From the NCBI RefSeq assembly GCF_900142845.1, contig NZ_FSRU01000002.1, forward strand, positions 1,674,001 to 1,738,000: a DNA stretch of 64,000 nucleotides, written 5' to 3'. Below, one piece after another: positions 37,827 through 56,064 of this stretch. The position numbers and the translations under genes are program-made. This DNA comes from Paraburkholderia phenazinium. Lineage in GTDB: Bacteria; Pseudomonadota; Gammaproteobacteria; Burkholderiales; Burkholderiaceae. The notes beneath the pieces were generated by a model that was not told the DNA's origin, did not search any database, and saw only the letters and a program-made list of their open reading frames with translations. How positions within the stretch are numbered: the first letter of the stretch is position 1; each line of letters starts with the position of its first letter.

Positions 37827-39167
37827 CTACCGCTCCACGTAACGGCTCGCCGGCCGCGGCAGCCCCAGGTGGTCGCGCAGCGTCGTGCCCGAATATTCCG
37901 TGCGGAACAAACCGCGCCGCTGCAACTCCGGCACCACCAGTTCGACGAAGTCATCCAGACCGCCCGGAAAGTACGGCGGCATGATGTTGAACCCGTCCGC
38001 GCCCTCACCCACGAACCATTCCTCCAGCGCATCCGCGACCTGGGTCGGCGTGCCCCACACGATCCGATGCCCGCGCGCGCCCGCCACGAGGTGATACAGT
38101 TCGCGCAAGGTCAGGTTCTCGCGGCGCGCCAGATCGGTAAGCAGCTTCGCACGGCTTTTCAGTTGCTCCGATTCGGGCAGTTCCGGCAAGGGGCCGTCGA
38201 GCGGAAACTTCGATACGTCATGGCCCAAACGATCGGACAGGAGCGTCAAGGCACCCGACGTATCGGTCCACTGCTGCAATTGCGCGTACTTGTCCTTCGC
38301 TTCCTGCTCGGTGCGGCCGATCACCGGGAACACGCCCGGCATCACATGCAGTTGCTCGCCGTCACGGCCGAACTTCGCCAGCCGGCCTTTGAGGTCGCGA
38401 TAGAAGATGCGTGCTTCGTCGAGCGTCTGCTGCGCGGTGAACACCACTTCCGCCGTGCGTGCGGCCAGATCCTGCCCCGGCCCTGACGAACCCGCCTGAA
38501 TCACCACGGGATGCCCCTGCGGCGGCCGCGACGCGTTCAACGGGCCCTTCACCGAAAAGAAGCGCCCCTCGTGCCCGAGCGTATGCACCTTGGCGGGATC
38601 GAAGTAGACGCCGCTTGCCTTGTCGCGCACGAGTGCATCGTCGTCCCAGCTATCCCACAGGCCTTTGACGACATCGACGAACTCTCCCGCCATCTCGTAG
38701 CGCAAGGCGTGATCCGGATGATTGCCGCGCGTGAAGTTCGCGGCGGTGCGGTCGTACGAGGTGGTGACGACATTCCATGCGGCACGTCCCTGGCTCAGAT
38801 GATCGAGCGATGCGAACGCGCGGGCCACGTGATACGGCTCGCTATAGGTCGTCGATGCCGTGGCGGCGAGGCCGATGTGGCGCGTGCCCATCGCGAGCGC
38901 CGACAGCAGGCACAGCGGCTCGAGACGCATCGCCATCGACGGATGCGCGTCCGGGCCGCTTGTGAGGCCATCGGCGAGGAACACCATGTCGAACTTCGCG
39001 CGCTCGGCGGTCTGGGTGATCCGCTGCATCAGCGCGAGGTTCTCGCTGCCGGCCTGAGCATCGGGATGACGCCAGCCGGCGACGTGATGCCCCGCGCCCT
39101 GGATGAACAGCCCGAGGCGCATTTGCCGCGGCGTTTTTTGGCTTGCAGCCGTTTGAACAGTACTCAT
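37827..39167 (-). CDS. LLM flavin-dependent monooxygenase, NtaA/SnaA/DszA class (2)
   Basis: A 446-residue reduced-FMN-dependent monooxygenase. Landmarks: RLGLFIQGAGHHVAGWRHP, HLSQGRAAWNVVTTSYD, GHPVVIQAGSSGPGQ and FNIMPPYFPGGLDDFVEL. It is close in layout to those at 28854 and 53204 but has a different active-site rim (FIQGAGHHVAGW). Its start overlaps the stop of the MmgE/PrpD gene by 4 bp, so the two are cotranslated. It faces the amino-acid-type importer tail to tail. Likely substrate: an organosulfur or related compound; not determined. Confidence 0.88.
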   Translation of the reverse strand: MSTVQTAASQKTPRQMRLGLFIQGAGHHVAGWRHPDAQAGSENLALMQRITQTAERAKFDMVFLADGLTSGPDAHPSMAMRLEPLCLLSALAMGTRHIGLAATASTTYSEPYHVARAFASLDHLSQGRAAWNVVTTSYDRTAANFTRGNHPDHALRYEMAGEFVDVVKGLWDSWDDDALVRDKASGVYFDPAKVHTLGHEGRFFSVKGPLNASRPPQGHPVVIQAGSSGPGQDLAARTAEVVFTAQQTLDEARIFYRDLKGRLAKFGRDGEQLHVMPGVFPVIGRTEQEAKDKYAQLQQWTDTSGALTLLSDRLGHDVSKFPLDGPLPELPESEQLKSRAKLLTDLARRENLTLRELYHLVAGARGHRIVWGTPTQVADALEEWFVGEGADGFNIMPPYFPGGLDDFVELVVPELQRRGLFRTEYSGTTLRDHLGLPRPASRYVER

Positions 39168-41009: not shown

Positions 41010-42512
41010 ATGGTCGCTCATCACGGCGGGCCGCAACAGATCGTCATCGTCGGCGGTGGGCTATCGGGAACCACGCTTGCCATCAAGCTGCTGCGCGAGG
41101 CGAGGCAGGCGCTGGCGGTCCGCCTCGTCGACCCCGCCGCGCAAGCTGGCCGCGGCCTCGCGTATTCGACCGAGGAGCCCGGCCACCTGCTCAACGGTCC
41201 CGCGCTGATGTTTACGCTCTACCCCGAGCAGCCGGACCATTTTGTCGACTGGCTCGCGGCGCAGCCCGAGTTTGCCGGCCAGCCGCGCGAAGCCGTCGCG
41301 CAGGCCTTCGCCCCGCGCTGGCGCTACGGCGACTACGTCAACGAGGAATTGCGGCGCGCCCAGCTCGCGGCCACGCGGGGCGTGACGTTCGAACATGTCC
41401 GGGCGCGTGTCGAAGACCTCGATGTGGCCGGACGCGGCATCACGCTCGCGCTCGACGCCGGCCGCGTGCTGCTCGCCGATCAGGTGGTGCTCGCACTCGG
41501 CGTGTTCCAGTCGCGGCCGCGCTTCGACGCCGACGGCAGTCTCGCGCAGGCGGGCCGGTATGTGGCCAACACATGGGATCGCACGCGGCTTGCGGCGCTC
41601 GTCGATGCACAAGAGGTGGTGCTGGTGGGCGCGAGCCTGACCATGATCGATACCGTGGTGTCGCTCGAAAAGCTCGGCTATCGCGGCACCTATCGGGTGT
41701 TGGCGCGGCATGGCCTGACACCGGTCGAACGGAGCGACGCCGCGCCGGCGACCGAGCCGTTCGGTAGAGAGGGGCCGCCGGGCACGTTGCGACGCGTGGT
41801 GCGTGAACTGCGCGCCAAGGCACGGGCCATCGTCGCGCACGGCGGCGACTGGCAATCGCTGCCGGGCGCGCTCAGGCCATATATGGCCGACTGGTGGCGC
41901 AGTGCCGCGCTGACGGACCGGCGCCGCTTCTTCCGTCACGTGCGGCCGCATTGGGACGTGTTCCTGCATCGCGCGCCGCCGGTCAGCGCAGCGCTGGTCG
42001 CCGCGCTGCGCGCCAGCGGACGCTTGAGCATCGAGGCAGCCAGCGTCAACGGTCTGGCCGAAGCGCCGGGCGGCCGCGTGAGCGTGAGCTATCGCCCGCG
42101 CGGCGGCGACGACGTACGCACGCTCGTCGCCGGGGGCGTGGTCAACTGCACCGGGCCGGACTATCGCTGGCATGCCGCCAGTGAGCAGCCTCTGGTGCGC
42201 AATCTGTTCGCACGCGGACTCGTGCAAACGGGACCGGTGGGTTTAGGGATCGCGGTCGATCCGTCGCTGGCTGCGGTGGCCGCGAACGGCAGCGTTTCGC
42301 CGCAGTTGTCAGTGCTGGGCGCCGCCTTGCGCGGCACGATCATCGAACCCGGCACGATCTCCGAAATCGCCAGCCAGACGAGTGCGTTGAGTACGCGCCT
42401 GCTCGAGAAATTACGCGCTTCGCAAGATGCAGCCGCGGCCTCGCTCCCCACGGAGAATCGCAACCACGACGCGGTTCCCTCAGAAGCCCTCGCCGCAACG
42501 TCGACCCAATGA
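41010..42512 (+). CDS. FAD/NAD(P)-binding oxidoreductase
   Basis: A 500-residue flavoprotein of the NAD_binding_9 / HI0933-like group. The Rossmann motif IVIVGGGLSGTTLA lies at 11-24 and a second dinucleotide loop VVLVGASLTMID near 212. The YGDYVNEELRRAQ region is typical of the family. There is no signal peptide. The substrate is not known. It lies between the monooxygenase/PrpD pair and the encapsulin operon and is convergent with the latter. AGGAG lies about 6-10 nt upstream of the ATG at 41010. Confidence 0.8.
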   Translation: MVAHHGGPQQIVIVGGGLSGTTLAIKLLREARQALAVRLVDPAAQAGRGLAYSTEEPGHLLNGPALMFTLYPEQPDHFVDWLAAQPEFAGQPREAVAQAFAPRWRYGDYVNEELRRAQLAATRGVTFEHVRARVEDLDVAGRGITLALDAGRVLLADQVVLALGVFQSRPRFDADGSLAQAGRYVANTWDRTRLAALVDAQEVVLVGASLTMIDTVVSLEKLGYRGTYRVLARHGLTPVERSDAAPATEPFGREGPPGTLRRVVRELRAKARAIVAHGGDWQSLPGALRPYMADWWRSAALTDRRRFFRHVRPHWDVFLHRAPPVSAALVAALRASGRLSIEAASVNGLAEAPGGRVSVSYRPRGGDDVRTLVAGGVVNCTGPDYRWHAASEQPLVRNLFARGLVQTGPVGLGIAVDPSLAAVAANGSVSPQLSVLGAALRGTIIEPGTISEIASQTSALSTRLLEKLRASQDAAAASLPTENRNHDAVPSEALAATSTQ

Positions 42513-42618: not shown

Positions 42619-44694
42619 TTAACGCCGCGTCGACAAACGCCGCACCACCGACACCAGCGCATCGACTTCATCGCAGGTGTTGTAGAACGCGAGCGACGGC
42701 CGCACGGTTGCCTCGACGCCGAAACGCCTCAGGATAGGCTGCGCGCAGTGATGCCCTGAGCGTACCGCAATGCCCTCTTCGTTCAGCGCCTGCCCGACCT
42801 CTTCCGTCTCGTAGCCCTTCAGCACGAACGACAACACACTCGCCTTGTCCTTCGCCGTGCCGATCAGCCGCACGCCCGGCACCGGTTGCAGCACGCTCGT
42901 CGCATAGGCCAGCAGATCGTGCTCGTAGCGCGCAATGTTCTCGATGCCAATGCGCGTCACGTAGTCGAGCGCCGCACCCAGTCCCACCGCATCCGCGATG
43001 TTGCCCGTGCCCGCTTCGAAACGGTTCGGCGGCGGCTGGAACACGGTGCGCTCGAAGGTCACGTCGGCAATCATGTTGCCGCCGCCCTGCCAGGGCGGCA
43101 TGTCCTCGAGAATCGCGCGCTTGCCGTACACCACGCCGATCCCCGTCGGCCCGAACACCTTGTGGCCCGAGAACACGAAGAAGTCCGCATCGATCGCCTG
43201 CACGTCGACCCGCATGTGCGACACCGACTGCGCGCCGTCGACCAGCGCCTTCGCGCCGGCACGATGCGCCATCTCGACGATCTCCTTGACCGGCACCACC
43301 GTGCCGAGCGCATTCGAAACCTGGGTGACCGAAACGATCCTGGTGCGGTCGTTGAGCAGCTTGCGATACTCGTCGAGCAGCACCTGACCGGAATCGTCGA
43401 CGGGGATCACGCGCAGTTTCGCACCGGTTTGCGCGGCAAGCTGCTGCCACGGCACGATGTTCGCGTGATGCTCGAGGTTCGAGACGATGATTTCGTCGCC
43501 TTCGCCGACGTTCTGCACACCCCAGGACTTCGCAATCAGATTGATCGCCTCGGTGGTGCCGCGCACGAAGACGATTTCATCCGGCGAGGCCGCGCCGATA
43601 AAACGCTGCACCTTGCTGCGCGCCGCCTCATACGCATCCGTCGCACGCCCCGCCAGTGCATGGGCCGCACGGTGGATGTTCGAGTTCTCGTGCGCGTAGA
43701 AGTACGCCAGGCGGTCGATCACGGACTGCGGCTTGTGCGTCGTCGCCGCGTTGTCGAACCATACCAGTTGACGGCCGTTCACCCGCTCCGAGAGGATCGG
43801 GAAATCGCGCCGGATAGCGTTGACATCGAACGGCGGGTGCGCCGATGCCGCGGCATTCGGCACAGCGTGCGCGGCTCGCGACGGCCCAGCGGATGCCTGC
43901 GCTTCGTCGACGAAGTAGCGTGAAACACCGCTACGATCCGTCGTGGCTGCGTCTCGCGACGGCGCATCGTACGGAAAGCGCTGTACCGACAACAACGAGC
44001 GCAACTCCGCTTCGCCTGGCAGCCCGAACGATTGCGCGGTGACGGTGTCGCTCGACGGCACGACGATATCCCGGCTACCCGAGGGGCCGTTGCCCGGCGT
44101 CCCGGCCTGCTCGTTAAGAAAGTAATACGGCGACGCAGCAGCAGGCGCCCCCGAAGCACCACCCGCCGACGGACGTTGCGCGCCCAGTCCCTCCGGCACG
44201 CCCAACGCAGCGCCACCGAAACGCGGCTCAAGCGCCGGAGCGATCGTCACCGCACTATCCGGCAAGCCGTTCTGCGCAGCGGCATGCGGCACGAGCGCAG
44301 GCGCACGATTACCGAGCGACAGCACATGCGTCGGCGCCGACGGCAGCAGATTTGCGCCCGCCACCTTCCCCTGCGGCAACGCGGCGCCCGGCACGCCTGT
44401 GCCGAAGCCACCGGGCCCCGCGAGCGGCGAACCTGGCGGAGCCGGATTGCTGACCGACGACAACCCAGGCGCGGCCACCGGCAAGGCCGAAGCGAACGAG
44501 GCCGACGACGCCGCATCCGTCAGGCTACCGCCAGGCGCCGCCGAAGACACCCCACCACCCGGCAAGGCGGCGAAGAATTCCGTCGCGAGCCGCGCGAGCG
44601 TCGCCGGATCGGGCAAGCCGGCCGGCAGCGTCTGCGGGACGTCGTGCGGCACGCCTCCTGCCAGCGGATTACTTGTAGGTGTCTGGATAGTCAT
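42619..44694 (-). CDS. Family 2A encapsulin cargo: cysteine desulfurase with N-terminal loading domain
   Basis: A 691-residue protein. Residues 289-691 are a SufS-type PLP cysteine desulfurase: VWFDNAATTHKP, PLP Lys512 in FSGHKVFGPTG and catalytic Cys650 in RSGHHCAQP. It converts cysteine to alanine and a persulfide. The first 285 residues are Pro/Ala/Gly-rich and look disordered, with short conserved-looking islands LARLATEFFAALPG (33-46), SPYYFLNE (188-195), FGLPGEAELRSLL (223-235) and SRYFVDE (258-264). Such an extension directs desulfurase into family 2A encapsulins. ATG 44694 lies 26 bp inside the shell gene, so the pair is coupled. An ATG eight codons earlier is possible. Confidence 0.95.
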   Translation of the reverse strand: MTIQTPTSNPLAGGVPHDVPQTLPAGLPDPATLARLATEFFAALPGGGVSSAAPGGSLTDAASSASFASALPVAAPGLSSVSNPAPPGSPLAGPGGFGTGVPGAALPQGKVAGANLLPSAPTHVLSLGNRAPALVPHAAAQNGLPDSAVTIAPALEPRFGGAALGVPEGLGAQRPSAGGASGAPAAASPYYFLNEQAGTPGNGPSGSRDIVVPSSDTVTAQSFGLPGEAELRSLLSVQRFPYDAPSRDAATTDRSGVSRYFVDEAQASAGPSRAAHAVPNAAASAHPPFDVNAIRRDFPILSERVNGRQLVWFDNAATTHKPQSVIDRLAYFYAHENSNIHRAAHALAGRATDAYEAARSKVQRFIGAASPDEIVFVRGTTEAINLIAKSWGVQNVGEGDEIIVSNLEHHANIVPWQQLAAQTGAKLRVIPVDDSGQVLLDEYRKLLNDRTRIVSVTQVSNALGTVVPVKEIVEMAHRAGAKALVDGAQSVSHMRVDVQAIDADFFVFSGHKVFGPTGIGVVYGKRAILEDMPPWQGGGNMIADVTFERTVFQPPPNRFEAGTGNIADAVGLGAALDYVTRIGIENIARYEHDLLAYATSVLQPVPGVRLIGTAKDKASVLSFVLKGYETEEVGQALNEEGIAVRSGHHCAQPILRRFGVEATVRPSLAFYNTCDEVDALVSVVRRLSTRR

Positions 44695-45601
44695 GGTACT
44701 TACCGATCTCCACGTCATCGAGAACCGCCAGCGCGTCCGGCGAATGCACCGCCAGCGAGCAGTACAGGGAAATCAGATAGGAGGCGATCGCATGGCTGTT
44801 GATGCCCATGAAACGCACCGACAGCCCCGGACCCTGTTCGCCCGCGACGCCCGGCTGGAACAGGCCGACTACGCCCTGGCGCTTGTCGCCCACGCGCAGC
44901 AGCAGGATCTTGGTCTTGCCGTCGGCCACCGGCACCTTGTCGGACGGCACCAGCGGAATGCCGCGCCACGTCAGGAACTGCGAACCGAACAGGCTGATGG
45001 TGGGCGGCGGCACGCCACGACGCGTGCATTCGCGGCCAAACGCGGCAATCGCGGCCGGATGGGTCAGGAAAAACGCCGGCTCTTTCCACACCCGGGTCAG
45101 CAACTCATCCAGATCGTCGGGCGTCGGCGCGCCGGTCAGCGGAAACACGCGCTGTTCTTCGGCGACGTTCGCCAGCAGACCGTAATCCGGATTGTTGATC
45201 AGTTGGCTCTCCTGCAATTCCTTGATCGTTTCGATCGTCAGGCGCAACTGTTCCTTGATCTGGTCGTGCGGGCTGCTGTACAGATCGGAGATGCGCGTAT
45301 GCACGTCGAGCACGGTGCTCACGGCATTCAGGAAATATTCGCGCGGCTCTTCTTCGTAGGGCACGAAGGTGCGCGGCAGCACGGTTTCGTCTTCGCGCTG
45401 CGTGCAGGCCACCTTCACCGCATCCGGATTCTTGACCTGGTTCAGACGGTAGATACCCGCTTCGACCGGCACCCATTGCAACAGATGCGTCAACCAGCGC
45501 GGCGTGATCGTCGCAAGTTGGGGAACGGTCTTGGTGGCATTGGCTAGTTGCCGTGCGGCGTTATCGCTAAGCGCCGTATGGCCGCTCGCTAGGGTCGACA
45601 T
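44669..45601 (-). CDS. Family 2A encapsulin shell protein (SrpI / MMP-I type)
   Basis: A 310-residue HK97-fold shell protein of the SrpI / mycobacterial major membrane protein I family; these proteins assemble into hollow icosahedral nanocompartments. Recognisable blocks: LTHLLQWVPVEAGIYRLN (about 38-55), EEPREYFLNAVSTVLDVHTR, FPLTGAPTPDDLDELLTRVW, THPAAIAAFGRECTRRG and the C-terminal DDVEIGKYHDYP. There is no cyclic-nucleotide-binding insertion, which separates family 2A from 2B. CGGAG precedes the ATG at 45601. It has its own promoter and operator (45643-45685) and is followed by its desulfurase cargo. Confidence 0.95.
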   Translation of the reverse strand: MSTLASGHTALSDNAARQLANATKTVPQLATITPRWLTHLLQWVPVEAGIYRLNQVKNPDAVKVACTQREDETVLPRTFVPYEEEPREYFLNAVSTVLDVHTRISDLYSSPHDQIKEQLRLTIETIKELQESQLINNPDYGLLANVAEEQRVFPLTGAPTPDDLDELLTRVWKEPAFFLTHPAAIAAFGRECTRRGVPPPTISLFGSQFLTWRGIPLVPSDKVPVADGKTKILLLRVGDKRQGVVGLFQPGVAGEQGPGLSVRFMGINSHAIASYLISLYCSLAVHSPDALAVLDDVEIGKYHDYPDTYK

Positions 45602-45642
45602 GTGTGGCTCCGGGGTTCTATAGATGAAAAACGGGAAAGCTT

Positions 45643-45657
45643 ATGACGCAGCGTCAT
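45643..45657. promoter_or_regulatory. Perfect 15-bp dyad over the shell-gene start site, likely operator
   Basis: ATGACGC-A-GCGTCAT is a perfect dyad that overlaps the last bases of the -10 box and the predicted start site. A protein bound here would block transcription of the shell and desulfurase genes. The XRE regulator encoded just upstream is the obvious candidate. Confidence 0.6.
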
Positions 45658-45685
45658 TATCAAGACCGAGCCGGACCCTGCTCAA
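45656..45685 (-). promoter_or_regulatory. Promoter of the encapsulin-desulfurase genes
   Basis: Minus-strand -35 TTGAGC (45685-45680) and -10 GATAAT (45661-45656), separated by 18 nt. The -10 matches the consensus in five of six positions. It gives a 5' leader of about 48 nt before the shell ATG. Confidence 0.6.
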
Positions 45686-45693
45686 CATGCTAT

Positions 45694-45712
45694 AGACGTC
45701 AGTTGGACGTCT
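45694..45712 (-). terminator. Short stem-loop at the end of the XRE gene
   Basis: AGACGTC (45694-45700) and GACGTCT (45706-45712), loop of 5 nt, spanning the XRE stop codon. No T-tract follows. It may lower read-through from the rhodanese-SAT-XRE part into the shell gene. Confidence 0.35.
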
Positions 45713-45995
45713 TCAGCACATTGGACAGGGTGGGCGCAGGCGCAGGCGGTGCGGTCTGCGTCGCAGAAACGACGCTGCCGCTGAACGACGAGCGCAGCAA
45801 ACTGGAGATCGGCTCGTTGAGCGCACGCGCGAGCTTGTCGACCGTGACGATCGAGGCAATCGCACTGCCGCGTTCGATCTCGCCGACATAGGACCGGTTT
45901 AAACCGGCATGCTCGGCGAGCTGTTCCTGCGACCAGGCGCGTGCCTCGCGCAACTCGCGCACCGCGGCGCCGAAGTTTTTCACGAGCGTGCTCAT
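45699..45995 (-). CDS. XRE-family helix-turn-helix regulator
   Basis: A 98-residue regulator. Residues 8-65 form an HTH_3 domain: VRELREARAWSQEQLAEHAGL, recognition region NRSYVGEIERGSA and then LARALNEPISSLL. The C-terminal 30 residues are Ala/Pro/Thr-rich. The gene overlaps the acetyltransferase stop by 4 bp (ATGA) and lies 97 bp upstream of the shell gene. It probably controls the promoter with the 15-bp dyad in front of that gene. Confidence 0.88.
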   Translation of the reverse strand: MSTLVKNFGAAVRELREARAWSQEQLAEHAGLNRSYVGEIERGSAIASIVTVDKLARALNEPISSLLRSSFSGSVVSATQTAPPAPAPTLSNVLKTSN

Positions 45996-47032
45996 GACGC
46001 GGTACTCGCTACGGGGTTAGCGGCATGAAGCGGCTGGGGCGCGTGCGGGGCTTGTGGAAGTTGCGGAGGTTGCGCGACCGGCGTCGCGGCCGGTGCATGC
46101 GGCGCCTGCGATGCCGCTGCGGCCTGCCCCTGGGTGGCTTCGTTACGCGAGACGGCCTGCGTCACATGACTGCCCGGCGCCACATCCTGGGTGAGCCACA
46201 CGTTACCGCCGATCACCGAGCCGCGCCCGAGCGTCACGCGGCCCAGAATGGTTGCGCCCGCATAGATCACCACGTCGTCCTCGACGATCGGATGGCGCGC
46301 AAGCCCCTTCTCCAGATGGCCCGCGGCATTGCGCGGAAACCGCTTGGCGCCGAGCGTCACGGCCTGATAGACGCGTACCCGCTGGCCGATCACGGCGGTT
46401 TCGCCGATCACCACCCCCGTGCCGTGATCGATAAAGAACCCAGCGCCGATCTGCGCGCCCGGGTGAATGTCGATCCCGGTCGCGGCATGCGCATGTTCGG
46501 CGACGATGCGTGCGAGCAGAGGCAATTCGAGCCGGTAGAGCTCATGCGCGAGACGGTGATGAATCATCGCGAGAATGCCGGGATAGCACAGCAGCACTTC
46601 GTCGACGCTGCCCGCCGCGGGATCGCCGTGAAAGGCGGCCAGCACGTCGCTGTCGAGCAGGCTGCGAATCTCCGGCAGCCGCGCGGCAAACTGGCGGACC
46701 GCGTGACTCGCCTGCGCCTCGATGAACTCGTCGGCGCGCGCATGATGGCGCGCCTTGTAGTTCAACTCGAGACGCGCCTGGCCAAGCAGCGCATGCAGCG
46801 CGGAATCCAGCGCATTCGCCACATAGAAGTTTTCGCTTTCCTGGCGCAGATCGGGCGGCCCAAGGCGCATCGGAAACAGCACGCCCTTGAGCGTATCGAC
46901 GATCCCGGCTAGCGCCTCGCGCGCCGGCAGGTCGCGCCCGCCGGGTTCGAGGGAGCGCTTTTGCACTTCGCGCCAGCTTTGGCGCACTGTTTGAAGCGAT
47001 TGAACGATATCGTCAATGTCGAATACAGCCAC
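45992..47032 (-). CDS. Serine O-acetyltransferase (EpsC/CysE type) with Pro/Ala tail
   Basis: A 346-residue enzyme that makes O-acetylserine, the acceptor for sulfide in cysteine synthesis. An N-terminal helical domain runs to about residue 190. The left-handed beta-helix follows: HPGAQIGAGFFIDHGTGVV holds the active-site His, then GETAVIGQRVRVYQ and GATILGRVTLGRGSVIG. The last 45 or so residues form a Pro/Ala/Gln-rich tail with two copies of QAPHAP, unusual for the family. It is the second gene of the operon, 33 bp after the rhodanese gene. Its product can refill the cysteine pool used by the encapsulated desulfurase. Confidence 0.92.
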   Translation of the reverse strand: MAVFDIDDIVQSLQTVRQSWREVQKRSLEPGGRDLPAREALAGIVDTLKGVLFPMRLGPPDLRQESENFYVANALDSALHALLGQARLELNYKARHHARADEFIEAQASHAVRQFAARLPEIRSLLDSDVLAAFHGDPAAGSVDEVLLCYPGILAMIHHRLAHELYRLELPLLARIVAEHAHAATGIDIHPGAQIGAGFFIDHGTGVVIGETAVIGQRVRVYQAVTLGAKRFPRNAAGHLEKGLARHPIVEDDVVIYAGATILGRVTLGRGSVIGGNVWLTQDVAPGSHVTQAVSRNEATQGQAAAASQAPHAPAATPVAQPPQLPQAPHAPQPLHAANPVASTAS

Positions 47033-47065
47033 AGTCAGTGCTCCCCGTCCTGATGATGAAACCAG

Positions 47066-47533
47066 CTAGTCCTGCTGCCACGGCAAGCCGTGGAAACGCC
47101 AGCCGTTCTGGCGGCCGCGCTGTTGCTGCGCGTCCAGTTCGCCTTCGAATCCTTCCAGCACGTTGAAGACCTGCGTGAGACCGGCCTTCGCGGCCGCCTC
47201 GGCGGCCAGCGCCGAACGGTTGCCGCTGCGGCACAGCAGCAGCACCACGGCCTCCTTGCCGGTCTTCGCTTCGAGTTCGCGGGCAAAGCGCGGATTGCGG
47301 GTCAAGCTCGTGCCGGTCGCCCAGGCCACGTGCAGACTGTCAGGCACATAACCCACGAACTTGCGCTCTTCGGCCGTGCGCACGTCGACCAGCAACGCCT
47401 CGCCCGCTGAAAACAACGCCCACGCGTCCTGCGGGGAAATCCCGCCCGCGTAGGGCAAACCCGCCGCTGCCGCGGCTTCGCGCGCCGTTGCCAGCGCCGC
47501 GTGTGTGCTTCGTTCTGCCAATGCAACCGTCAT
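47066..47533 (-). CDS. Single-domain rhodanese-like sulfurtransferase
   Basis: A 155-residue cytoplasmic rhodanese domain. The catalytic Cys101 lies in the six-residue loop CRSGNRS; LLVDVRTAEERKFVGYVPDS (about 47-66) is the usual CH2A-like segment. Single-domain rhodaneses carry persulfide sulfur between enzymes or to acceptors. It is the first gene of the encapsulin operon, with an AAGGAG ribosome binding site before the ATG at 47533. It may accept sulfur from the desulfurase or mobilise stored sulfur. Confidence 0.93.
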   Translation of the reverse strand: MTVALAERSTHAALATAREAAAAAGLPYAGGISPQDAWALFSAGEALLVDVRTAEERKFVGYVPDSLHVAWATGTSLTRNPRFARELEAKTGKEAVVLLLCRSGNRSALAAEAAAKAGLTQVFNVLEGFEGELDAQQQRGRQNGWRFHGLPWQQD

Positions 47534-47583: not shown

Positions 47584-47711
47584 AGGGGCTGGCCAGGCAC
47601 TGCGAACGCTTGAGCGTCGCCGCCTATAGCCATCAAAACGTACTATGCGAGCGCGCCATCGAAAGCAGAACCAATAAAATCTGATTTCTAAAGAAGCACG
47701 ATGATGGATGC

Positions 47712-48986
47712 TCAAGCAGCTAAAGGCGTATCCGCACCCTGCCCCTCGATTTCCACGCTGGTGTGCGCGAGGCTGAAACGCTCGTTCGGCGGCGTGCCGT
47801 TCAGGTGGAAAGCGCCGATCGCGGCTTCGCGCTGAATCGCCGGGTTATGCGAGGCGATCACGCGGGCATTGCGCCAGTGGCGATCGAGCCGCAGCGTCTC
47901 GCTGGTGGCCGATGCACCGCCCACTTCGAACAGGAGCGTGGCGGCCTCCAGCGCCTGACCGATCACCACCTGCTGCGCCTGCCACGCTTCGATGTCGAGC
48001 GCGAAGTAGTCCTGCGTTTGCGCGCGCCCGGCCAAACGGTCCTGATAGATCCTCTCGAGCGAGCGCGCCACCGCTTCCACGACGCTTTCAGCGGCGTAAG
48101 CCAGACTCGCGAGACGGCCTATCACGCGCTGGGTTAACGGGTTGTCGCGCGGGCTCGAACGGCCCGGTACGCCGAAGGTGCGCGTGCGGCCCTGCGCAAA
48201 CGCCACACCGTCGCGCAATACCGCGCGTGCGACGCCGGCGAGCGTCGCCAGATGCACGGTCTGATAGAACGCGGGTTGCGAAGTATTGCGTTTTGGCTCC
48301 GAGCCCTTGTAGCGCAGCAGGAACTGCTCGTCTGGCACCTCGACCTGATCGAAGCGCGTCGTGCCGCTCGCAGTAAGGCGCTGGCCGAAACCGTCCCAGT
48401 CGTCCAGACGCGTGACGCCTCGCGCGTCGCCTCGTACCAGCACGCGCACGTCGTCGGTGCCGTCGTGCGCCGCCACGTCGATCCAGTCGGCGTACAGGCT
48501 GCCGGTGCTGTAGTACTTCTCGCCATTCAGGCGCCAGCCTTCGGCCGCCCGTTGCAGGGTCACCGAGTTGTGCGTGGCGCCGGTACGCTCCGAGATCGCC
48601 GCGCCGACCAGTTCGCCCGCTGCGATCTTCGTGAGCCAGCGTTCGCGCGCGGCTTCGTCGTCGCGTTCGAGACTGCCTTCGATAAAGCCGAAATTCAGCC
48701 GCAGGATCTGCGGCAGATTCGAGTCCGCTTCGCCGAGGCGCGTGAGGAGCCGGAAGAACTGCGGCAACGTCGCGCCGCCTCCACCGTAACGGCGCGGCAC
48801 ACGCAATGCGGTAAAGCCCGCATCCTTTAACCATTGCACCGGCTCGTGCGCCAGTTCGCGCTTCTGCTCGCGCTCGACGCTGCCCGCCGCGATGCGCTCG
48901 AACACCGGCGCGAAACGCGCGTCGAGTTCGGCATCCGTAGGTGCCGTGTGCGCCGCGTCGTCGGCTGGGGTGTGCTGGGTTGTCAT
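47712..48986 (-). CDS. SfnB/DszC-like flavin monooxygenase (acyl-CoA dehydrogenase fold)
   Basis: A 424-residue protein with the acyl-CoA dehydrogenase fold but the signature of sulfur-acquisition monooxygenases (SfnB, DszC). Helical N-domain with RVPRRYGGGGATLPQFF; beta domain with SERTGATHNSVTLQR and LNGEKYYSTGSLYADWI; C-terminal helices with GGASATSETLRLDRHWRNAR. These enzymes use reduced flavin and oxygen on sulfides or sulfones instead of acyl-CoA. The ATG at 48986 has GGTGGAGC upstream. The gene is 178 bp upstream of the rhodanese gene, same strand; read-through into the encapsulin operon is possible. Confidence 0.85.
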   Translation of the reverse strand: MTTQHTPADDAAHTAPTDAELDARFAPVFERIAAGSVEREQKRELAHEPVQWLKDAGFTALRVPRRYGGGGATLPQFFRLLTRLGEADSNLPQILRLNFGFIEGSLERDDEAARERWLTKIAAGELVGAAISERTGATHNSVTLQRAAEGWRLNGEKYYSTGSLYADWIDVAAHDGTDDVRVLVRGDARGVTRLDDWDGFGQRLTASGTTRFDQVEVPDEQFLLRYKGSEPKRNTSQPAFYQTVHLATLAGVARAVLRDGVAFAQGRTRTFGVPGRSSPRDNPLTQRVIGRLASLAYAAESVVEAVARSLERIYQDRLAGRAQTQDYFALDIEAWQAQQVVIGQALEAATLLFEVGGASATSETLRLDRHWRNARVIASHNPAIQREAAIGAFHLNGTPPNERFSLAHTSVEIEGQGADTPLAA

Positions 48987-49052
48987 GCGGGTGCTCCACC
49001 GGAAACGTAACAGCTCGTCAGCATAGATTTTCTGAACTGCGTCGCACAACAA

Positions 49053-49355: not shown

Positions 49356-50423
49356 ATGCGATATCTTCGTTTGCTCAAGTCAGTCCTGGCGGCCGCCACG
49401 TTGTCGATAGCGGCCCTGCATGCGTATGCCGACAAGCCCACGGTCATCCGGATCGGCGTGGCGGAACAGGGCACGGGCGATCCACCGACCTTCGGCGGTT
49501 CGCCGGCGGCCACGGTGCAGATCCAGCAACTGCTCGAGAAGGAGTTCGCTGCCGACGGCATCAAGGTCGAGTGGCTGTTCTTCAAAGGTGCGGGACCTGC
49601 GGTCAACGAGGCGATCGCCGACAAGTCGCTCGACTTCGCCTTCCAGGGCGATTTGCCCGCCGTGCTGGCACGCGCCAATGGTCTGAAGACACGCATCCTG
49701 CTCGAGTCGGGCGTGCGGGTGGGCGTGAAAGTGGCCGTGCCCTCCGACTCCGACATCCACTCGATCAAGGATCTCAAGGACCGCCGCGTTTCGATCTTTC
49801 GCGGCACCAACCTGCAACTCGTCGCCGACAACGCGCTCGCCGCCAATCGCCTCGACGAGCGCGACCTGCACGTGATCAACCTCGACACCGCCAGCGCGCT
49901 TGCAGCACTCGCCTCCAAAGGCATCGACGCCTCGTTCAGCGACTATCACCTCTACAAGCTGCGCGATCAGGGTCTGGTCAGAATCGTCTACGAGTCGCAA
50001 AACGACGGACCGCAGTTCACGCGGCAATCGCATCTGCTCGTGGTCGACGATTTCGACCGCGCGCATCCGGACATCGTGCAGCGTGTCGTAACCACCTTCG
50101 TCAAAGGCGCGCTGTGGTCCTCCGATGAAGCGAACCGCGACGCCCTGTTCAAGCTGTGGGCGAGGACCGGTGTTCCGTACGCGTCGTGGCAGGCCGAGTT
50201 TGCGAATCAGCCGTTGAAATCGCGCAATTCGCCGCTCATCGATCCGTTCATCGTCGCCCGCTACAAGACGGTCGCGCAGAATGCGCTCAACCTCAAACTG
50301 ATCCGCCAGCCCATCGACGTCGACACCTGGTTCGAGCCCAGCTATCTGGACAATGCCCTGCGCACGCTGCAGCTCGATCACTACTGGACGCGCTACGACG
50401 CGGCAGGCAAGCCGCTCAGCTAA
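49356..50423 (+). CDS. Sulfonate-type ABC importer, substrate-binding protein (2)
   Basis: A 355-residue SsuA-like periplasmic protein. Signal peptide is cleaved near ALHAYADKP (residue 25). Family features: VIRIGVAEQGTGDPPTFGGSP (ligand mouth), EWLFFKGAGPAVNEAIADK, DFAFQGDLPAVLA and SIKDLKDRRVSIFRGT. It starts a five-gene set (binding protein, two permeases, ATPase, monooxygenase) that probably imports and cleaves one organosulfur compound. No clear ribosome binding site precedes the ATG. Confidence 0.87.
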   Translation: MRYLRLLKSVLAAATLSIAALHAYADKPTVIRIGVAEQGTGDPPTFGGSPAATVQIQQLLEKEFAADGIKVEWLFFKGAGPAVNEAIADKSLDFAFQGDLPAVLARANGLKTRILLESGVRVGVKVAVPSDSDIHSIKDLKDRRVSIFRGTNLQLVADNALAANRLDERDLHVINLDTASALAALASKGIDASFSDYHLYKLRDQGLVRIVYESQNDGPQFTRQSHLLVVDDFDRAHPDIVQRVVTTFVKGALWSSDEANRDALFKLWARTGVPYASWQAEFANQPLKSRNSPLIDPFIVARYKTVAQNALNLKLIRQPIDVDTWFEPSYLDNALRTLQLDHYWTRYDAAGKPLS

Positions 50424-50438
50424 CCACGGAGCGCCATC

Positions 50439-51317
50439 ATGAGCGAAACCGCGATCCCGCTTCACGGCAAAAGCGGTGAATCTGCCGAAGCCGCTGAGCG
50501 CGACGGCCACCCTGTCGCCGCACTCGCAGCGCTACGCAGGCGCGAACGTCTGCGTGCCGTGGCCTGGCACCTTGCGCCGTGGCTGCTGCCGGCGCTGCTG
50601 TTCGGACTATGGAGCATCGGCTGCGAGCGCGGCTGGATCGCACCGCAGATCTTGCCGCCGCCCGAGCGCGTCTACGAGACCTTCGTGGATCTGGCGCGCA
50701 GCGGCGACCTCCTGCATAACACGCTGGTCAGCCTGCAACGGGTGCTGGTGGGTTTCGGCATCGGGACAGTACTGGGTTTCGCGATCGGCGCCGCGCTTGG
50801 GCTATCGCCCACCCTGGAAGCGTACGTGCTGCCGAGTTTCAACGCGGTCGTCCAGGTCCCCGTGCTGGGCTGGTTGCCGTTTCTGCTCTTGCTGGTGGGC
50901 GTCGGCGAGCCGCTCAAGTACATCCTGATCGCGCATGCGGCGCTGGTGCCGGTCACGCTCAGCACGCTACAGGGCTTTCGCCAGACGCCCGCCGCACTCG
51001 ACGAAGTGGCGCGCGTCTTCGCCTATAACCGCTGGCAACGTATCGCCTATATCGTGCTGCCCGCCGCCGTGCCGACACTAGCCACCGGCGTGCGGCTCGC
51101 CTTCACCAAGGCGTGGCTTGCACTGGTGGTGGTGGAGCTGGTGGCGTCGTCGGAAGGACTCGGCTATCTGATCGTCTACGGACGGCAACTGTTCCAGCTC
51201 GATCTGGTGATGGCTGCGGTGGTCGTGGTCGGCGCCATCGGTCTGACGATGAACCGGCTGCTCGATGCGCTCGAAGCGCGTCTGCGTCGCGGACAGCCGT
51301 CCGCGTTTCGTGAGTGA
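50439..51317 (+). CDS. Sulfonate-type ABC importer permease (2A)
   Basis: A 292-residue SsuC-type permease with six helices after an N-terminal cytoplasmic tail of about 45 residues. The coupling loop reads DEVARVFAYNRWQRIAYIVLP. CGGAG precedes the ATG. It is followed by a second, diverged permease, so the transporter could be a heterodimer; related sulfonate importers use one permease gene. Confidence 0.88.
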   Translation: MSETAIPLHGKSGESAEAAERDGHPVAALAALRRRERLRAVAWHLAPWLLPALLFGLWSIGCERGWIAPQILPPPERVYETFVDLARSGDLLHNTLVSLQRVLVGFGIGTVLGFAIGAALGLSPTLEAYVLPSFNAVVQVPVLGWLPFLLLLVGVGEPLKYILIAHAALVPVTLSTLQGFRQTPAALDEVARVFAYNRWQRIAYIVLPAAVPTLATGVRLAFTKAWLALVVVELVASSEGLGYLIVYGRQLFQLDLVMAAVVVVGAIGLTMNRLLDALEARLRRGQPSAFRE

Positions 51318-51383
51318 GTGTGTGAGTGTGATCCGCGCGTGACCCGCGCCCGATCAAGCGGCCGCTATGCCAGGGAGTCCCAC

Positions 51384-52274
51384 ATGAGTCGAATTACTCC
51401 GTCGTTTCTACAGCGTGCTACCGGCAGCAAACGCCAGGGTCCACCGCCGTGTGACTGCGAAGTGCCGGTCAAACGGGAAACTACGATACGCAAACAGGCC
51501 GCCGAACCCGGCAAGCGCCGCTTCGACGCCCGCGGTCTCGTCCTGCCTATTGCGGTCATCGCACTGTGGTGGGCGATCTCCCAGGCGCATCTCGTCAAGA
51601 GCGGTCTGCTGGTAAGCCCCGGTCAGGTGCTGCAAACCGCCTGGGAGCAGATCACGAGCGGCGCGTTGCTGCGCGCGCTATCGGCCTCGCTCGCGCGCGA
51701 AGCAAGCGGCTTCGTCATCGGTACGGTAGGCGGCCTGTTGCTTGGCAGCGTACTCGGCCTGTCACGCATCGCGACGCGCCTGATCGGCCCAAGCTTCGAC
51801 ACCTTCAAGCAGATCTCGCTGTTCGCGTGGATCCCACTGATCTCCGTGTGGTTCGGCCTCGGCGACGCGGCGAAGATCGTGTTTCTCTCGCTCGCTGCGT
51901 TGCTGCCGGTCACCGCGCACACCTTCGACGGCATTCACGCGGTGCCGCGTGCGTATATCGAAGTGGCGCGCGCCTTCCGCTATTCGCGCCTGCAGATGAT
52001 CGGCTACGTCATTCTGCCCGCCGCGCTGCCTTCGATTTTCACCGGCATCTATCTCGCGTTGATCTATTCATGGCTCGCCACGCTCGGCGCTGAATATTTG
52101 CTGGTGGCCGGCAGCGGCATCGGCAATACGCTGATCGACGGCAGCGAGCAGTTCCGCATGGATCTGGTGCTGTTCGGGATCATCGTCATCGGCCTCACGG
52201 GCTGGGCGCTCAATGCTTTGGCGCGCGCAGTCGAACGCGCGGTGCTGGCGCGACGTCTGCCGGCTTCGAACTGA
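51384..52274 (+). CDS. Sulfonate-type ABC importer permease (2B)
   Basis: A 296-residue SsuC-type permease. Its coupling loop is IEVARAFRYSRLQMIGYVILP. The N-terminal 55 residues are polar and basic with a CDC pair, and precede the first helix. The ATG at 51384 is chosen for its GGGAG site; a later start (GTG about 28 codons on) would remove much of that tail and is possible. Located between permease 2A and the ATPase. Confidence 0.85.
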   Translation: MSRITPSFLQRATGSKRQGPPPCDCEVPVKRETTIRKQAAEPGKRRFDARGLVLPIAVIALWWAISQAHLVKSGLLVSPGQVLQTAWEQITSGALLRALSASLAREASGFVIGTVGGLLLGSVLGLSRIATRLIGPSFDTFKQISLFAWIPLISVWFGLGDAAKIVFLSLAALLPVTAHTFDGIHAVPRAYIEVARAFRYSRLQMIGYVILPAALPSIFTGIYLALIYSWLATLGAEYLLVAGSGIGNTLIDGSEQFRMDLVLFGIIVIGLTGWALNALARAVERAVLARRLPASN

Positions 52275-52308
52275 GCGCGCTTGCGACGCTAACATCAGGA
52301 TCTCGTTC

Positions 52309-53157
52309 ATGACCACCCCTCTCCCCGACACCATCGACATTCTGCACGTCAGCAAGCACTACGCCCAGCGCGGTGCGGCCCTGGCGGTTCTCGACGACAT
52401 TACGCTGCGGGTACGCCCCGGCGAATTCGTCAGCGTGCTCGGCTCGAGCGGATGCGGCAAGTCCACGCTGCTGCGGCTGATTGCCGGACTCGACACCGAC
52501 TACGGCGGCGAGATCCGGGTCGCCGGCGAACCGGTGCGCGACACCTCGCTGGAACGCGGCATCGTGTTTCAGGACCACCGGCTGTTTCCGTGGCTGACGG
52601 CTTCGCAGAACATCCTCGCCGCGTTGAGGAATGCGCCGCTTTCGGCGAAGGAGAAACGCGAAGCGGTGGCGGAACACATTGAACTGGTAGGCCTCGCCGG
52701 CTTCGAGCAGGCCTACCCGCATCAACTCTCAGGCGGGATGGCGCAACGCGTCGCGATTGCCCGCGGCCTCGTCAACCGGCCACGCGTGCTGCTGCTCGAC
52801 GAACCGTTCGGCGCGCTGGATGCACTCACTCGCGGCCGTCTGCAGAACGAATTACAGCGCATCTGGGAACGCGAGCGCATCACCATGATTCTGGTCACGC
52901 ACGACGTCGACGAGGCGCTTTATCTCGGCGATCGCGTGGTCACCATGGCGCCGCGTCCAGGACGCATCAAACGCGTCGTCGAGGTCGCGCTGCCGCGACC
53001 GCGCGAGCGCAGCGATCCGCGCTTCATCCGTCTGCGCGAAGAAGTCCTGGCCGATTTCGCCGAGGACGGCACGACGGCGCACCACGAAGCGGATGGCCCA
53101 CCTCCGGGCGGCCACCCGCCCAACCCGCCGATCACCGAATGGCGGCTCGCATGGTGA
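52309..53157 (+). CDS. Sulfonate-type ABC importer ATPase (2)
   Basis: A 282-residue SsuB/TauB-type ATPase: Walker A GSSGCGKST, Q-loop FQDHRLFPW, signature LSGGMAQRVAIARGL, Walker B VLLLDEPFGALD and H-loop LVTHDVDEALYLGD. A His/Pro-rich C-terminal tail of about 30 residues is unusual. It completes the transporter that starts at 49356 and lies 46 bp before the monooxygenase gene. Confidence 0.9.
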   Translation: MTTPLPDTIDILHVSKHYAQRGAALAVLDDITLRVRPGEFVSVLGSSGCGKSTLLRLIAGLDTDYGGEIRVAGEPVRDTSLERGIVFQDHRLFPWLTASQNILAALRNAPLSAKEKREAVAEHIELVGLAGFEQAYPHQLSGGMAQRVAIARGLVNRPRVLLLDEPFGALDALTRGRLQNELQRIWERERITMILVTHDVDEALYLGDRVVTMAPRPGRIKRVVEVALPRPRERSDPRFIRLREEVLADFAEDGTTAHHEADGPPPGGHPPNPPITEWRLAW

Positions 53158-53203: not shown

Positions 53204-54556
53204 ATGAGCGAACACAAGCGGCAAATCAGGCTAGGCGCATTCCTGATGGAAACCGGCCACCACATCGCCGCATGGCGTCATCCGGATACGCACGCGAGCG
53301 GCGGCCTCGATTTCGCGCACTATGCGCAACTCGCGCAGATCGCCGAGCGCGCCAGGTTCGATGCGATCTTCTTCGCCGACAGCGTCAGCGTGCGCGACAC
53401 CAACCTGCCTTCGCTCTCGCGCACCGCCCGCGCCGATCACTTCGAGCCATTGACGCTGCTGTCGGCGCTCTCGGTGGTGACGCAGCATATCGGCCTGATT
53501 GCGACTGTCTCGACCACCTTCAACGAGCCCTATAATCTCGCCCGCAAATTCGCGTCGCTCGATCATCTGAGCGGCGGCCGTTCGGGCTGGAATCTCGTCA
53601 CATCCAGTACGGAATCCGAAGCACACAATTTCAGCTTCGAACAGCACCCGGACCATGCCGTGCGCTATGAACGCGCCCGCGAGTTCTACGACGTCGTGGC
53701 CGGCCTCTGGGATAGCTGGGAAGACGATGCGTTTCTGCGCGACAAGGAGAGCGGCGTCTACTTCGATGCGGACAAGCTGCATGTGCTCAATCATCGTGGC
53801 AAGCACTTCAAGGTGCGTGGGCCGCTGAACGTCGCGCGTTCGCCGCAGGGCTGGCCGGTGGTCGTGCAGGCCGGGGCTTCCGACGCAGGCAAGGAACTCG
53901 CCGCGCAAACCGCTGAAGTCATTTTCGTCGCGCACCAGACGCTCGAAGAAGCGCAGGCGTTCTATCGCGACGTCAAGGGACGACTCGCGAAATATGGGCG
54001 CCAGCCCGAGCATCTGAAGATCATGCCGGGCATCTTTCCGGTGATTGGCCGCACCCAGGAAGAAGCGCAGGAAAAGTTCGACGCGCTGCAGGCGTTGATT
54101 CACCCCACCGTGGGCCTGTCGCTGCTGTCGAACATGTCCGGCGGTGTCGACCTTTCCCAGTATCCGGTGGACGGTCCTTTGCCTGAGCTGCCTGAGACCA
54201 ACGGCGGCAAGAGCCGTCAGCGGCTGCTGTTCGATCTCGCGCGCCGCGAGAACCTGACCATCCGCGACCTGTATCTGCGCATTGCCGGCGCTCGTGGTCA
54301 TCAACAGGTGGTAGGCACGCCGCAGAGCATTGCGGATCAGTTACAGCAGTGGTTCGAGGAAGAAGGCGCCGACGGCTTCAACATCATGTCGCCGTGGCTG
54401 CCGGGTGGACTGAGCGAGTTTGCCGAGCTCGTCGTGCCCGAACTGCAGCGGCGCGGCCTCTTCAGAACCGAGTACGAGGGACGTACGCTGCGTGACAATC
54501 TGGGGCTGCCGCGGCCGCAGAATCGTTATACGCAGCAGGCTGCCAAACAGGCCTAG
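53204..54556 (+). CDS. LLM flavin-dependent monooxygenase, NtaA/SnaA/DszA class (3)
   Basis: A 450-residue reduced-FMN monooxygenase: RLGAFLMETGHHIAAWRHP at the N-terminus, HLSGGRSGWNLVTSST, GWPVVVQAGASDAGKEL and FNIMSPWLPGGLSEFAEL. It is the last gene of the importer set that starts at 49356, so it probably acts on the imported compound and frees sulfite or another sulfur species. CGGAG precedes the ATG at 53204. It is convergent with the cystine-type importer. Confidence 0.9.
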   Translation: MSEHKRQIRLGAFLMETGHHIAAWRHPDTHASGGLDFAHYAQLAQIAERARFDAIFFADSVSVRDTNLPSLSRTARADHFEPLTLLSALSVVTQHIGLIATVSTTFNEPYNLARKFASLDHLSGGRSGWNLVTSSTESEAHNFSFEQHPDHAVRYERAREFYDVVAGLWDSWEDDAFLRDKESGVYFDADKLHVLNHRGKHFKVRGPLNVARSPQGWPVVVQAGASDAGKELAAQTAEVIFVAHQTLEEAQAFYRDVKGRLAKYGRQPEHLKIMPGIFPVIGRTQEEAQEKFDALQALIHPTVGLSLLSNMSGGVDLSQYPVDGPLPELPETNGGKSRQRLLFDLARRENLTIRDLYLRIAGARGHQQVVGTPQSIADQLQQWFEEEGADGFNIMSPWLPGGLSEFAELVVPELQRRGLFRTEYEGRTLRDNLGLPRPQNRYTQQAAKQA

Positions 54557-54590: not shown

Positions 54591-55358
54591 TCATTCGGCC
54601 CATGCCTCCGGCAAGGTCTGCGTGAGCGTCGACACGAAACGCGCAGTCTCGGCTTGCCGAGGCTGCGTAAAAATCTGCCGCGAAGCGCCCGCCTCCACCA
54701 CCACGCCGTTGTTCAGGAACACAACGTCGCGTGCAATCGACGCTGCCAGACGCAGGTCGTGCGTCGCCATCAGCATCGTCATGCCTTCCTTCGCGAGTTG
54801 CTTGAGGACTTCCACCACCTCCGCAGCCAGGCCCGGATCGAGCGCCGAGGTTGGCTCGTCGCACAGCAACACCTCCGGCGAAGGCGCCAACGCCCGCGCA
54901 ATCGCCACCCGCTGCTGCTGGCCGCCGGACAGCGTCGCGGGCCATGCATCCGCCTTGTGCGCGATGCCCACCTTGGTCAGCAATTCATGCGCACGTTCCC
55001 GTGCCCGTGCCTTGTCCCACTTCAGAACCGTCAGGAGACCTTCCATCACGTTCTGCTGCACCGTCAGATGCGGGAACAACTGGAAGTTCTGGAACACCAT
55101 GCCGGTGCGGCGCCGGATCGCGAGCACGGCATCGCGCCGAGGCTGATGCTCGCGGCTGAATTCGAGGCGCTGCTCGCCCAGTTCGAGCGAGCCGCCCTCG
55201 GGAATCTCGAGCAGGTTCACGCAGCGCAATAGCGTGCTCTTGCCGCTGCCCGACGGGCCGATCAATGCGGTGACATTGCCCGGGGCCAGCGTGAGGTCCA
55301 CCGAGCTCAACACCCGATGTTCGCCAAAGAACTTCTCGATGTTTTCCAGTTTGATCAT
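54591..55358 (-). CDS. Cystine/amino-acid-type ABC importer ATPase
   Basis: A 255-residue GlnQ/TcyN-type ATPase: Walker A GPSGSGKST, Q-loop FQNFQLFPHL, signature LSGGQQQRVAIARAL, Walker B VLLCDEPTSALDP and H-loop MATHDLRLA. It starts in a TGATG overlap with the permease stop, so the two are translationally coupled. Together with 55358 and 56065 it forms a three-gene importer resembling TcyABC. Confidence 0.9.
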   Translation of the reverse strand: MIKLENIEKFFGEHRVLSSVDLTLAPGNVTALIGPSGSGKSTLLRCVNLLEIPEGGSLELGEQRLEFSREHQPRRDAVLAIRRRTGMVFQNFQLFPHLTVQQNVMEGLLTVLKWDKARARERAHELLTKVGIAHKADAWPATLSGGQQQRVAIARALAPSPEVLLCDEPTSALDPGLAAEVVEVLKQLAKEGMTMLMATHDLRLAASIARDVVFLNNGVVVEAGASRQIFTQPRQAETARFVSTLTQTLPEAWAE

Positions 55359-56035
55359 CACTGTCCTGCCTGGAAAAGCGCGTGCCGGCCGAAGCGCTGT
55401 TCGAGCTTCACCTGTGCCGACGACAACACGGAACTGAACACCAGATAGACCAGCGCCGCTTCCGAATACAGGATCAGCGGTTCGTACGTCACCGAGGCAA
55501 TCCGTTGCGCCGCCTGAAACACCTCGGGCACGGTCAGCACCGCGGCGAGCGAGGTGTCCTTGACGAGCGAGATAAACGAGTTGGACAGCGGCGGCAACGC
55601 GACGCGCGCCGCCTGCGGCAGGATCGCGCGACGCAGTGCCTGGCCGCGCGTCATCCCCATCGAATAGGCGGCTTCCCACTGCCCTTTCGGAATCGACTCG
55701 ATGACGCCGCGGATCACCTCGGAGTTATACGCGCCGACGTTCAGCGAGAAACCGATGATGGCCGCCGTCAATGGGTCGAGCACGATCCCCACGTTCGGCA
55801 AGCCATAGAAGATCACAAATAGTTGCACCAGCAACGGCGAGCCGCGAATCAGCCAGACGTAGAAGCGGACGATCGCCACCGCCCAGCGCGGGCCAAACAG
55901 GCGGATCAGCGCGGCGGCGAACGCCAGCGCCAGGCCGAGCGCAAACGACGCGAGCGTGAGCGGCACAGTGAACACGAGCCCCGCGTACAGCAGGGGCCAC
56001 AGCGACTGCGCCATCAGATGCAACCAGGCTGGCAT
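55358..56035 (-). CDS. Cystine/amino-acid-type ABC importer permease
   Basis: A 225-residue permease with five helices, like TcyB/YecS. LIRGSPLLVQLFVIFYGLP and the EAA loop EVIRGVIESIPKGQWEAAYS are typical. A single permease gene implies a homodimer. It is 29 bp downstream of the binding-protein gene. Confidence 0.9.
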   Translation of the reverse strand: MPAWLHLMAQSLWPLLYAGLVFTVPLTLASFALGLALAFAAALIRLFGPRWAVAIVRFYVWLIRGSPLLVQLFVIFYGLPNVGIVLDPLTAAIIGFSLNVGAYNSEVIRGVIESIPKGQWEAAYSMGMTRGQALRRAILPQAARVALPPLSNSFISLVKDTSLAAVLTVPEVFQAAQRIASVTYEPLILYSEAALVYLVFSSVLSSAQVKLEQRFGRHALFQAGQ

Positions 56036-56064
56036 GATTCAGACCCTTCGGAGCCGAGCGGCGC

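Follow-up and report, generated by a model that had tools for sequence, protein, structure and literature searches.

The switching-on of desulfurase encapsulins in Proteobacteria, and the use they make of sulfur, can be approached through an operon of Paraburkholderia phenazinium located at 47533-42619 on the minus strand of a 64,000 nt stretch of contig NZ_FSRU01000002.1 (positions 1,674,001 to 1,738,000; this whole stretch is referred to as the window, and coordinates count from its first nucleotide). Five intact open reading frames (ORFs) encode, in order, a rhodanese, a serine O-acetyltransferase (SAT), an XRE regulator, an encapsulin shell and a cysteine desulfurase. Judged by its genes this is an intact family 2A desulfurase encapsulin operon, a kind already known and of which it is an ordinary member; what appears new, and worth following, is the pairing of the XRE regulator with candidate operators. 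We consider it probable that the locus specifies a loaded family 2A cage, with an activator working at the promoter before the rhodanese gene (P1) and the XRE protein working both there and at a second promoter before the shell gene (P2).

The operon and its cargo

The gene for the rhodanese-like sulfurtransferase (47066-47533; single domain, 155 aa, PF00581 E 1e-12) is separated by 33 bp from that of the SAT (45992-47032; EpsC/long type, 346 aa), which overlaps by 4 bp the gene of the Cro/C1-type XRE regulator (45699-45995; 98 aa, HTH_3 E 1.3e-14, no NCBIfam cut-off passed). After a gap of 97 bp the shell gene follows (44669-45601; SrpI/MMP-I type, 310 aa), overlapping by 26 bp the gene of the cargo desulfurase (42619-44694; SufS type, 691 aa). 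All are on the minus strand. An initial annotation, made from the sequence alone, had described this five-gene operon with all parts intact, and the ORFs, hidden Markov model (HMM) scores and active-site residues bear it out. Of the 58 fetched relatives with a whole shell gene, 46 retain the full order; this conservation and the HMM scores together exclude a chance occurrence.

The family 2A identity proposed in the annotation agrees with curated models, solved homologues and near matches to both known loading motifs. Checked against the encapsulin HMM, as the annotation had advised, the shell scores 526 bits (NF041162 encap_f2a, cut-off 380), with a further 335 bits to PF19307 (cut-off 22.8). 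It also exceeds the family 2B model NF041163 (412 bits, cut-off 400), the 2A score being the higher; the cyclic-nucleotide-binding domain that marks family 2B was not found in the 310 aa shell, whose sole Pfam match is SrpI-like. The closest solved chains are 8t6r (561 bits) and SrpI itself, 6x8m (490 bits). The desulfurase scores 967 bits with NF041166 f2_encap_cargo1 (cut-off 800) and 565 bits with TIGR01979 (cut-off 475), and 8kg1 is the closest solved chain to its catalytic domain. Lys512 and Cys650 are in place. Since the SufS model match begins at residue 293, the annotated N-terminal extension of about 285 residues is also correct. This putatively disordered extension contains LARLATEFFA at 33 and AASPYYFLNE at 186, each identical by eye at 8 of 10 positions to the loading motifs LARLANEFFS and AASPYYFLDG given for the family cargo in the accessible text of PMC8049743.

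The locus thus resembles the Synechococcus SrpI system in its shell and in a SufS-type cargo with both motifs and a putatively disordered N-terminus. The pore residues Gly194 and Pro196 of SrpI, counted on the alignment, are matched in this shell. The two differ in control: going by the title of a cited work, plasmid genes there are reported to respond to sulfur availability and CysR, whereas here an XRE protein and an activator-type site apparently take that part. The words 'rhodanese', 'regulator', 'CysB' and 'helix-turn-helix' are absent from the main text of PMC8049743. Closer in gene content are the proteobacterial operons of PMC8346489, in the accessible text of which desulfurase cargo likewise occurs with SAT and rhodanese, these two being the most enriched accessory genes of family 2A desulfurase operons; 813 of 1281 such operons are placed in Proteobacteria and Burkholderia is named. 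'XRE' is absent from the main text of that paper, figures and supplements lying outside this scope.

Family 2A shells were found in 55 of 144 genomes of the genus, 73 of 299 of the family (72 above cut-off) and 40 of 399 of the order (39 above cut-off). The nearest records in the plasmid collection comprise four from Burkholderia and one each from Variovorax, Paraburkholderia, Caballeronia and Cupriavidus. Second copies consisting only of shell and desulfurase are present at L060 (genome G101), L074 (G062), L082 (G008) and L084 (G073); no rhodanese, SAT or XRE match lies near them, and these same-genus genomes also carry an XRE-type operon. Genome G061 has three shell copies. L113 (G397) retains the remnant of a shell-desulfurase pair, matching only over 41 residues of the shell and in two stretches of the desulfurase.

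Fate of the sulfur

Shell subunits would assemble into an HK97-type cage, with the desulfurase packaged by way of its N-terminal extension. Cysteine would enter through the pores and lose its sulfur to the desulfurase, and the sulfur may then stay inside, stored as persulfide or in zero-valent form, or be handed to the co-encoded rhodanese. A desulfurase encapsulin of Acinetobacter baumannii, with a family 2A shell and a desulfurase, reportedly serves sulfur storage.

The two accessory enzymes have the active-site residues assigned to them by the annotation. Cys101 of the rhodanese stands in CRSGNRS, the closest solved chain being 8w14, 'Rhodanese' (206 bits). In the SAT the catalytic Asp and His motifs are present as DIHPG (at 188), DHGTG (at 202) and RHPIV (at 246). 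The SAT scores 159 bits with the EpsC model NF041874, above its cut-off of 150, and 165.5 bits with TIGR01172 cysE, below its cut-off of 210.65; 3f1x is its closest solved chain (250 bits). Its C-terminal tail is Ala/Pro-rich, variable across relatives and without the C-terminal Ile that we take to end CysE, which presumably predicts no CysK docking and weak feedback by cysteine. A loading motif shared by the XRE or SAT tails was also considered and rejected, none being seen by eye in the tails of the relatives.

The annotation had envisaged a closed loop in which serine acetylation refills the cysteine pool. The SAT is indeed encoded, but it yields only O-acetylserine, and there is no cysteine synthase in the operon (genes elsewhere in the genome were not looked for); because of this the loop could close only via genes elsewhere. 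The SAT would provide O-acetylserine, with cysteine made by an enzyme encoded outside the operon. On the outgoing side, SufE has no match in the host genome, while the same search finds it in 5 of the 14 genomes used as controls. The SufS-type cargo would thus be without its usual acceptor, leaving the rhodanese or the lumen to receive the sulfur.

These observations also bear on a tentative alternative, in which the cage is a sulfur relay and not a store: the desulfurase would pass persulfide only to the operon rhodanese, and thence to chosen thio-cofactor or Fe-S targets. A relay is proposed in the accessible text of PMC8346489, and it would suit both the missing SufE and the place of the rhodanese within the order kept in 46 of 58 relatives. 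It fits poorly with the four second copies at L060, L074, L082 and L084, which carry shell and desulfurase with no rhodanese nearby, even if those genomes do have a full operon at another place. We find the relay possible.

CTATAG boxes and the XRE regulator

Both proposed promoters contain a CTATAG-type box on the minus strand. At P1 the box GATGGCTATAGGCGG (47620..47634, pattern match at 47623-47634) is a candidate XRE operator. The -10-like hexamer CATAGT (47642..47647), recognised by eye, is kept in most relatives, and the rhodanese promoters have TTTAGAAATNNNNNTTNATTGGTTC and this hexamer in common. In the window TTGGTT lies 21 bp from CATAGT, apparently too distant for a good -35, as would be expected of an activator-dependent promoter. 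At P2 comparison of loci revealed the box GACGTCTATAGCATGTTGA (45682..45700), likewise a candidate XRE operator, which shares bases with a -35-like hexamer and with the final two positions of the XRE stop codon. The promoter itself, identified by eye and kept in relatives, reads TTGAGC, an 18-bp spacer and GATAAT (45656..45685). Most shell genes with an adjoining XRE gene have the block CTATAGCATGTTGA about 80-100 bp before them, overlapping the -35-like TTGAGC.

Downstream of the P2 -10 lies a CATAAGC block (45639..45645, by eye), which is widely kept near the P2 start, the ATAAGC part even at L060 and L084, which have no XRE gene and no CTATAG box. A perfect 15-bp palindrome separating the XRE and shell genes, ATGACGC-T-GCGTCAT (45643-45657), was considered as an operator and discarded; among L006-L059 its core occurs only in L017, the window itself.

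Presence of the box follows presence of the regulator. Over the family and order levels together, a CTATAG-type box is found upstream of the shell in all 92 loci with an adjoining XRE gene and in 1 of 35 without. In a first set of 59 loci that includes the window the counts were 50/50 against 0/9, and among 97 distinct family-level loci (identical loci merged, L017 excluded, L113 dropped as a shell fragment) 83/83 against 1/14; the order level adds 9/9 against 0/21 with the box in a looser form. The sole exception at family level, L172 of genome G276, has kept its box while the XRE gene is on another contig with the rhodanese and SAT genes; by eye, both elements are retained in the promoter of that rhodanese-SAT-XRE group. 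The G276 operon is thus split, with shell and box in L172 and the other three genes near an NtaA-type gene (L197). In a tree of 127 shells, seven independent pairs (starred branches) differ in the adjoining XRE gene, and across them the shell box changes in the same direction six times, in the opposite direction never and not at all once (sign test p 0.031). Of 49 XRE loci with a rhodanese gene, 48 have the box before that gene as well, in the form CTA[TA]AG and between -48 and -97 (CTAAAG in four), as against 0 of 4 loci without XRE. Outside the family, the plasmid record of Variovorax sp. PBL-E5 combines a gene annotated as helix-turn-helix with GGCGGCTATAGCCCGTTGA upstream of its shell.

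Absence of XRE was judged within the fetched flank, which upstream of the shell of L200 amounts to 236 bp. The loci L085 and L112 break off at contig edges. For the 34 loci with neither an adjoining XRE gene nor a box, XRE was sought elsewhere in only some of the genomes; G166, G183 and G292 gave no match at 1e-8, and G246 and G274 gave distant matches, 39 and 43 percent identical.

An unlikely explanation of these patterns is that the box belongs to the promoter itself or serves a global regulator, and tracks XRE because the two go back to one ancestral form of the operon. In its favour, the box at the shell coincides in part with the -35-like hexamer and with the XRE stop codon, the loci compared are related by descent, the sign test draws on seven pairs, and 17 further matches to the box pattern are found elsewhere in the genome. 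This explanation is at odds with the box before the rhodanese gene, far from the XRE gene, with its retention in G276 despite the relocated XRE gene, and with L060 and L084, where other promoter parts remain but XRE and the box are both missing. The preferred reading is that the XRE protein is a dedicated regulator with candidate operators at both promoters; it would bind the CTATAG box of P1 and the one lying over the P2 -35, most likely repressing both promoters, and such repression would time the production of shell and cargo. The annotation had called the XRE control unknown, and the comparisons now supply a specific operator hypothesis.

Across the genome the box pattern has 19 matches at 18 places, against 97 for a reversed control, and two of them are in the operon. 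A wider CTATAG regulon was considered and rejected, 12 of the 19 matches being inside frames by a rough GC3 frame test; of the seven out-of-frame matches, only the two of the operon have a passing start no more than 250 bp away. At L213 (G632) a diverged box, CGATAGCATATCGAG, has next to it an XRE homologue whose recognition helix looks decayed. Covariation of a Ser/Thr position in the XRE recognition helix with one base of the shell box was examined as evidence of contact and given up after it failed in L217, L222 and G276. Within the family all 16 Thr cases have G and all 67 Ser cases have T or C, and the starred branches require the Thr label to have changed two or more times.

The activator-type element and neighbouring sulfur genes

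The third component of the proposed control is the element TTTAGAAATCAGATTTTATTGGTTCT, located at 47667..47692 on the minus strand in P1, before the rhodanese gene. It is CysB/SsuR-like in appearance and scores 45.7 bits with a matrix for which 47 rhodanese promoters were taken from other genomes. Four hits of at least 10 bits occur in the window, one of them that of the operon, whereas 60 order-2 Markov shuffles gave 0.017 on average. The minus-strand hit at 49046 is followed after about 60 bp by an in-frame ATG of the gene for an SfnB-like oxidoreductase (47712-49052; 254 bits, below the cut-off of 431), and that at 34339 after about 165 bp by the gene of a polar-amino-acid or cystine-type binding protein. 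Elsewhere in the same genome hits precede two SsuA genes (22.7 and 14.2 bits) and a TauD-like gene (20.9 bits), the taurine dioxygenase model score of which, 239 bits, is below cut-off. There were no hits of at least 8 bits in 20 control loci. With moderate confidence the element may be regarded as a CysB/SsuR-type site, through which a CysB/SsuR-like activator would drive P1 under sulfur limitation. A literature search found no recognisable publication on a Burkholderia CysB/SsuR binding site.

Outside the operon the highest activator-like score, 23.6 bits at L154, belongs to a site between divergent NIPSNAP-like and DszB/SsuA-like genes, named by eye. Two fixed patterns for the element were also tried. 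A rigid one matched the genome once, in the operon itself, and was not relied on. Nor was a looser one, with seven matches against none for the reversed control, as it had been built from four of its own hits; its only independent matches are L167, before the TauD-like gene, and L169 and L170, where no sulfur gene was seen.

O-acetylserine also gives rise to N-acetylserine, which acts as CysB co-inducer in enteric bacteria, and so, as a hypothesis, the SAT may be a positive input to the promoter.

Several points weigh against the combined reading of a loaded cage under activator and XRE control. At the order level, represented by 30 loci of other families (30 of 41 places, the other 11 including three family members, G000 among them, and one below cut-off), the looser box, NNATAGNNNNTYGA, was picked after inspecting those same sequences, and exact CTATAG is present in 4 of the 9. 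L108 has an XRE gene and no box before its rhodanese gene, and the rhodanese promoter of Variovorax sp. PBL-E5 shows just a weak GGCTATCGCC. The fit between recognition helix and box base breaks down outside the family (L217, L222) and in G276, and the conservation of the shell box could partly reflect its position over the XRE stop codon. As to the activator, the window hit at 37739 runs into a coding frame, points at no gene start and probably arose by chance. Among 14 sulfonate-type loci (the best of 26 SsuA-type matches, two of them in the window, with the L147 hit being the 49046 site) 4 have an activator hit of at least 8 bits and 10 do not, and another regulator could use the site. Synechococcus knock-outs showed no growth phenotype, according to the accessible text of PMC8049743.

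Genes with likely roles in organosulfur uptake and use surround the operon. SsuA is encoded at 31504-32496 (266 bits, above cut-off) and an NtaA/DmoA-type monooxygenase at 37827-39167. Beyond the SfnB-like gene there follow an SsuA-like gene, two SsuC-like genes and an ATPase gene (49356-53157, the ATPase in 52213-53157 being named by eye), a second NtaA/DmoA monooxygenase (53207-54556, 626 bits) and the ATPase, permease and binding protein of a cystine-type ABC transporter (54591-56844; 221 to 273 bits, below equivalog cut-offs). The transporter genes are thus about 10 kb from the cysteine desulfurase compartment. An MmgE/PrpD protein is also encoded in the flanks. The gene of an FAD-NAD(P)-binding protein (41010-42512) is convergent with the operon, a neighbour found among the fetched relatives only at L061 and L064. 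Flanks vary among relatives, and weak to moderate SsuA, SsuC or NtaA matches recur near many of them.

That the caged desulfurase is a safety valve, degrading excess imported cysteine without free sulfide while XRE senses an excess of cysteine or persulfide and not starvation, is very unlikely: the cystine-type transporter genes would suit it, but their scores are below the equivalog cut-offs, the SAT would add cysteine and not remove it, and in the accessible text of PMC8049743 family 2A shell and desulfurase increase on sulfur starvation.

Among the titles listed for the open literature, and in the main texts of PMC8346489 and PMC8049743, no report of XRE or CysB control of a family 2A operon was found; one paper has both encapsulin and XRE, the former mentioned twice. 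We give even chances to a more general proposal, that the Burkholderiales have here a two-promoter switch in which an autoregulated XRE protein, its gene placed between those of the sulfur enzymes and the shell, would act on CTATAG operators beneath a starvation activator and so time the making of the cage, the trigger perhaps being a product of the compartment chemistry such as persulfide or O-acetylserine. With one small regulator and a pair of short conserved boxes, the control of the operon lends itself to direct testing. Its setting among organosulfur and cystine-type uptake genes, with no SufE match in the genome, points to a role for the compartment under sulfur scarcity.

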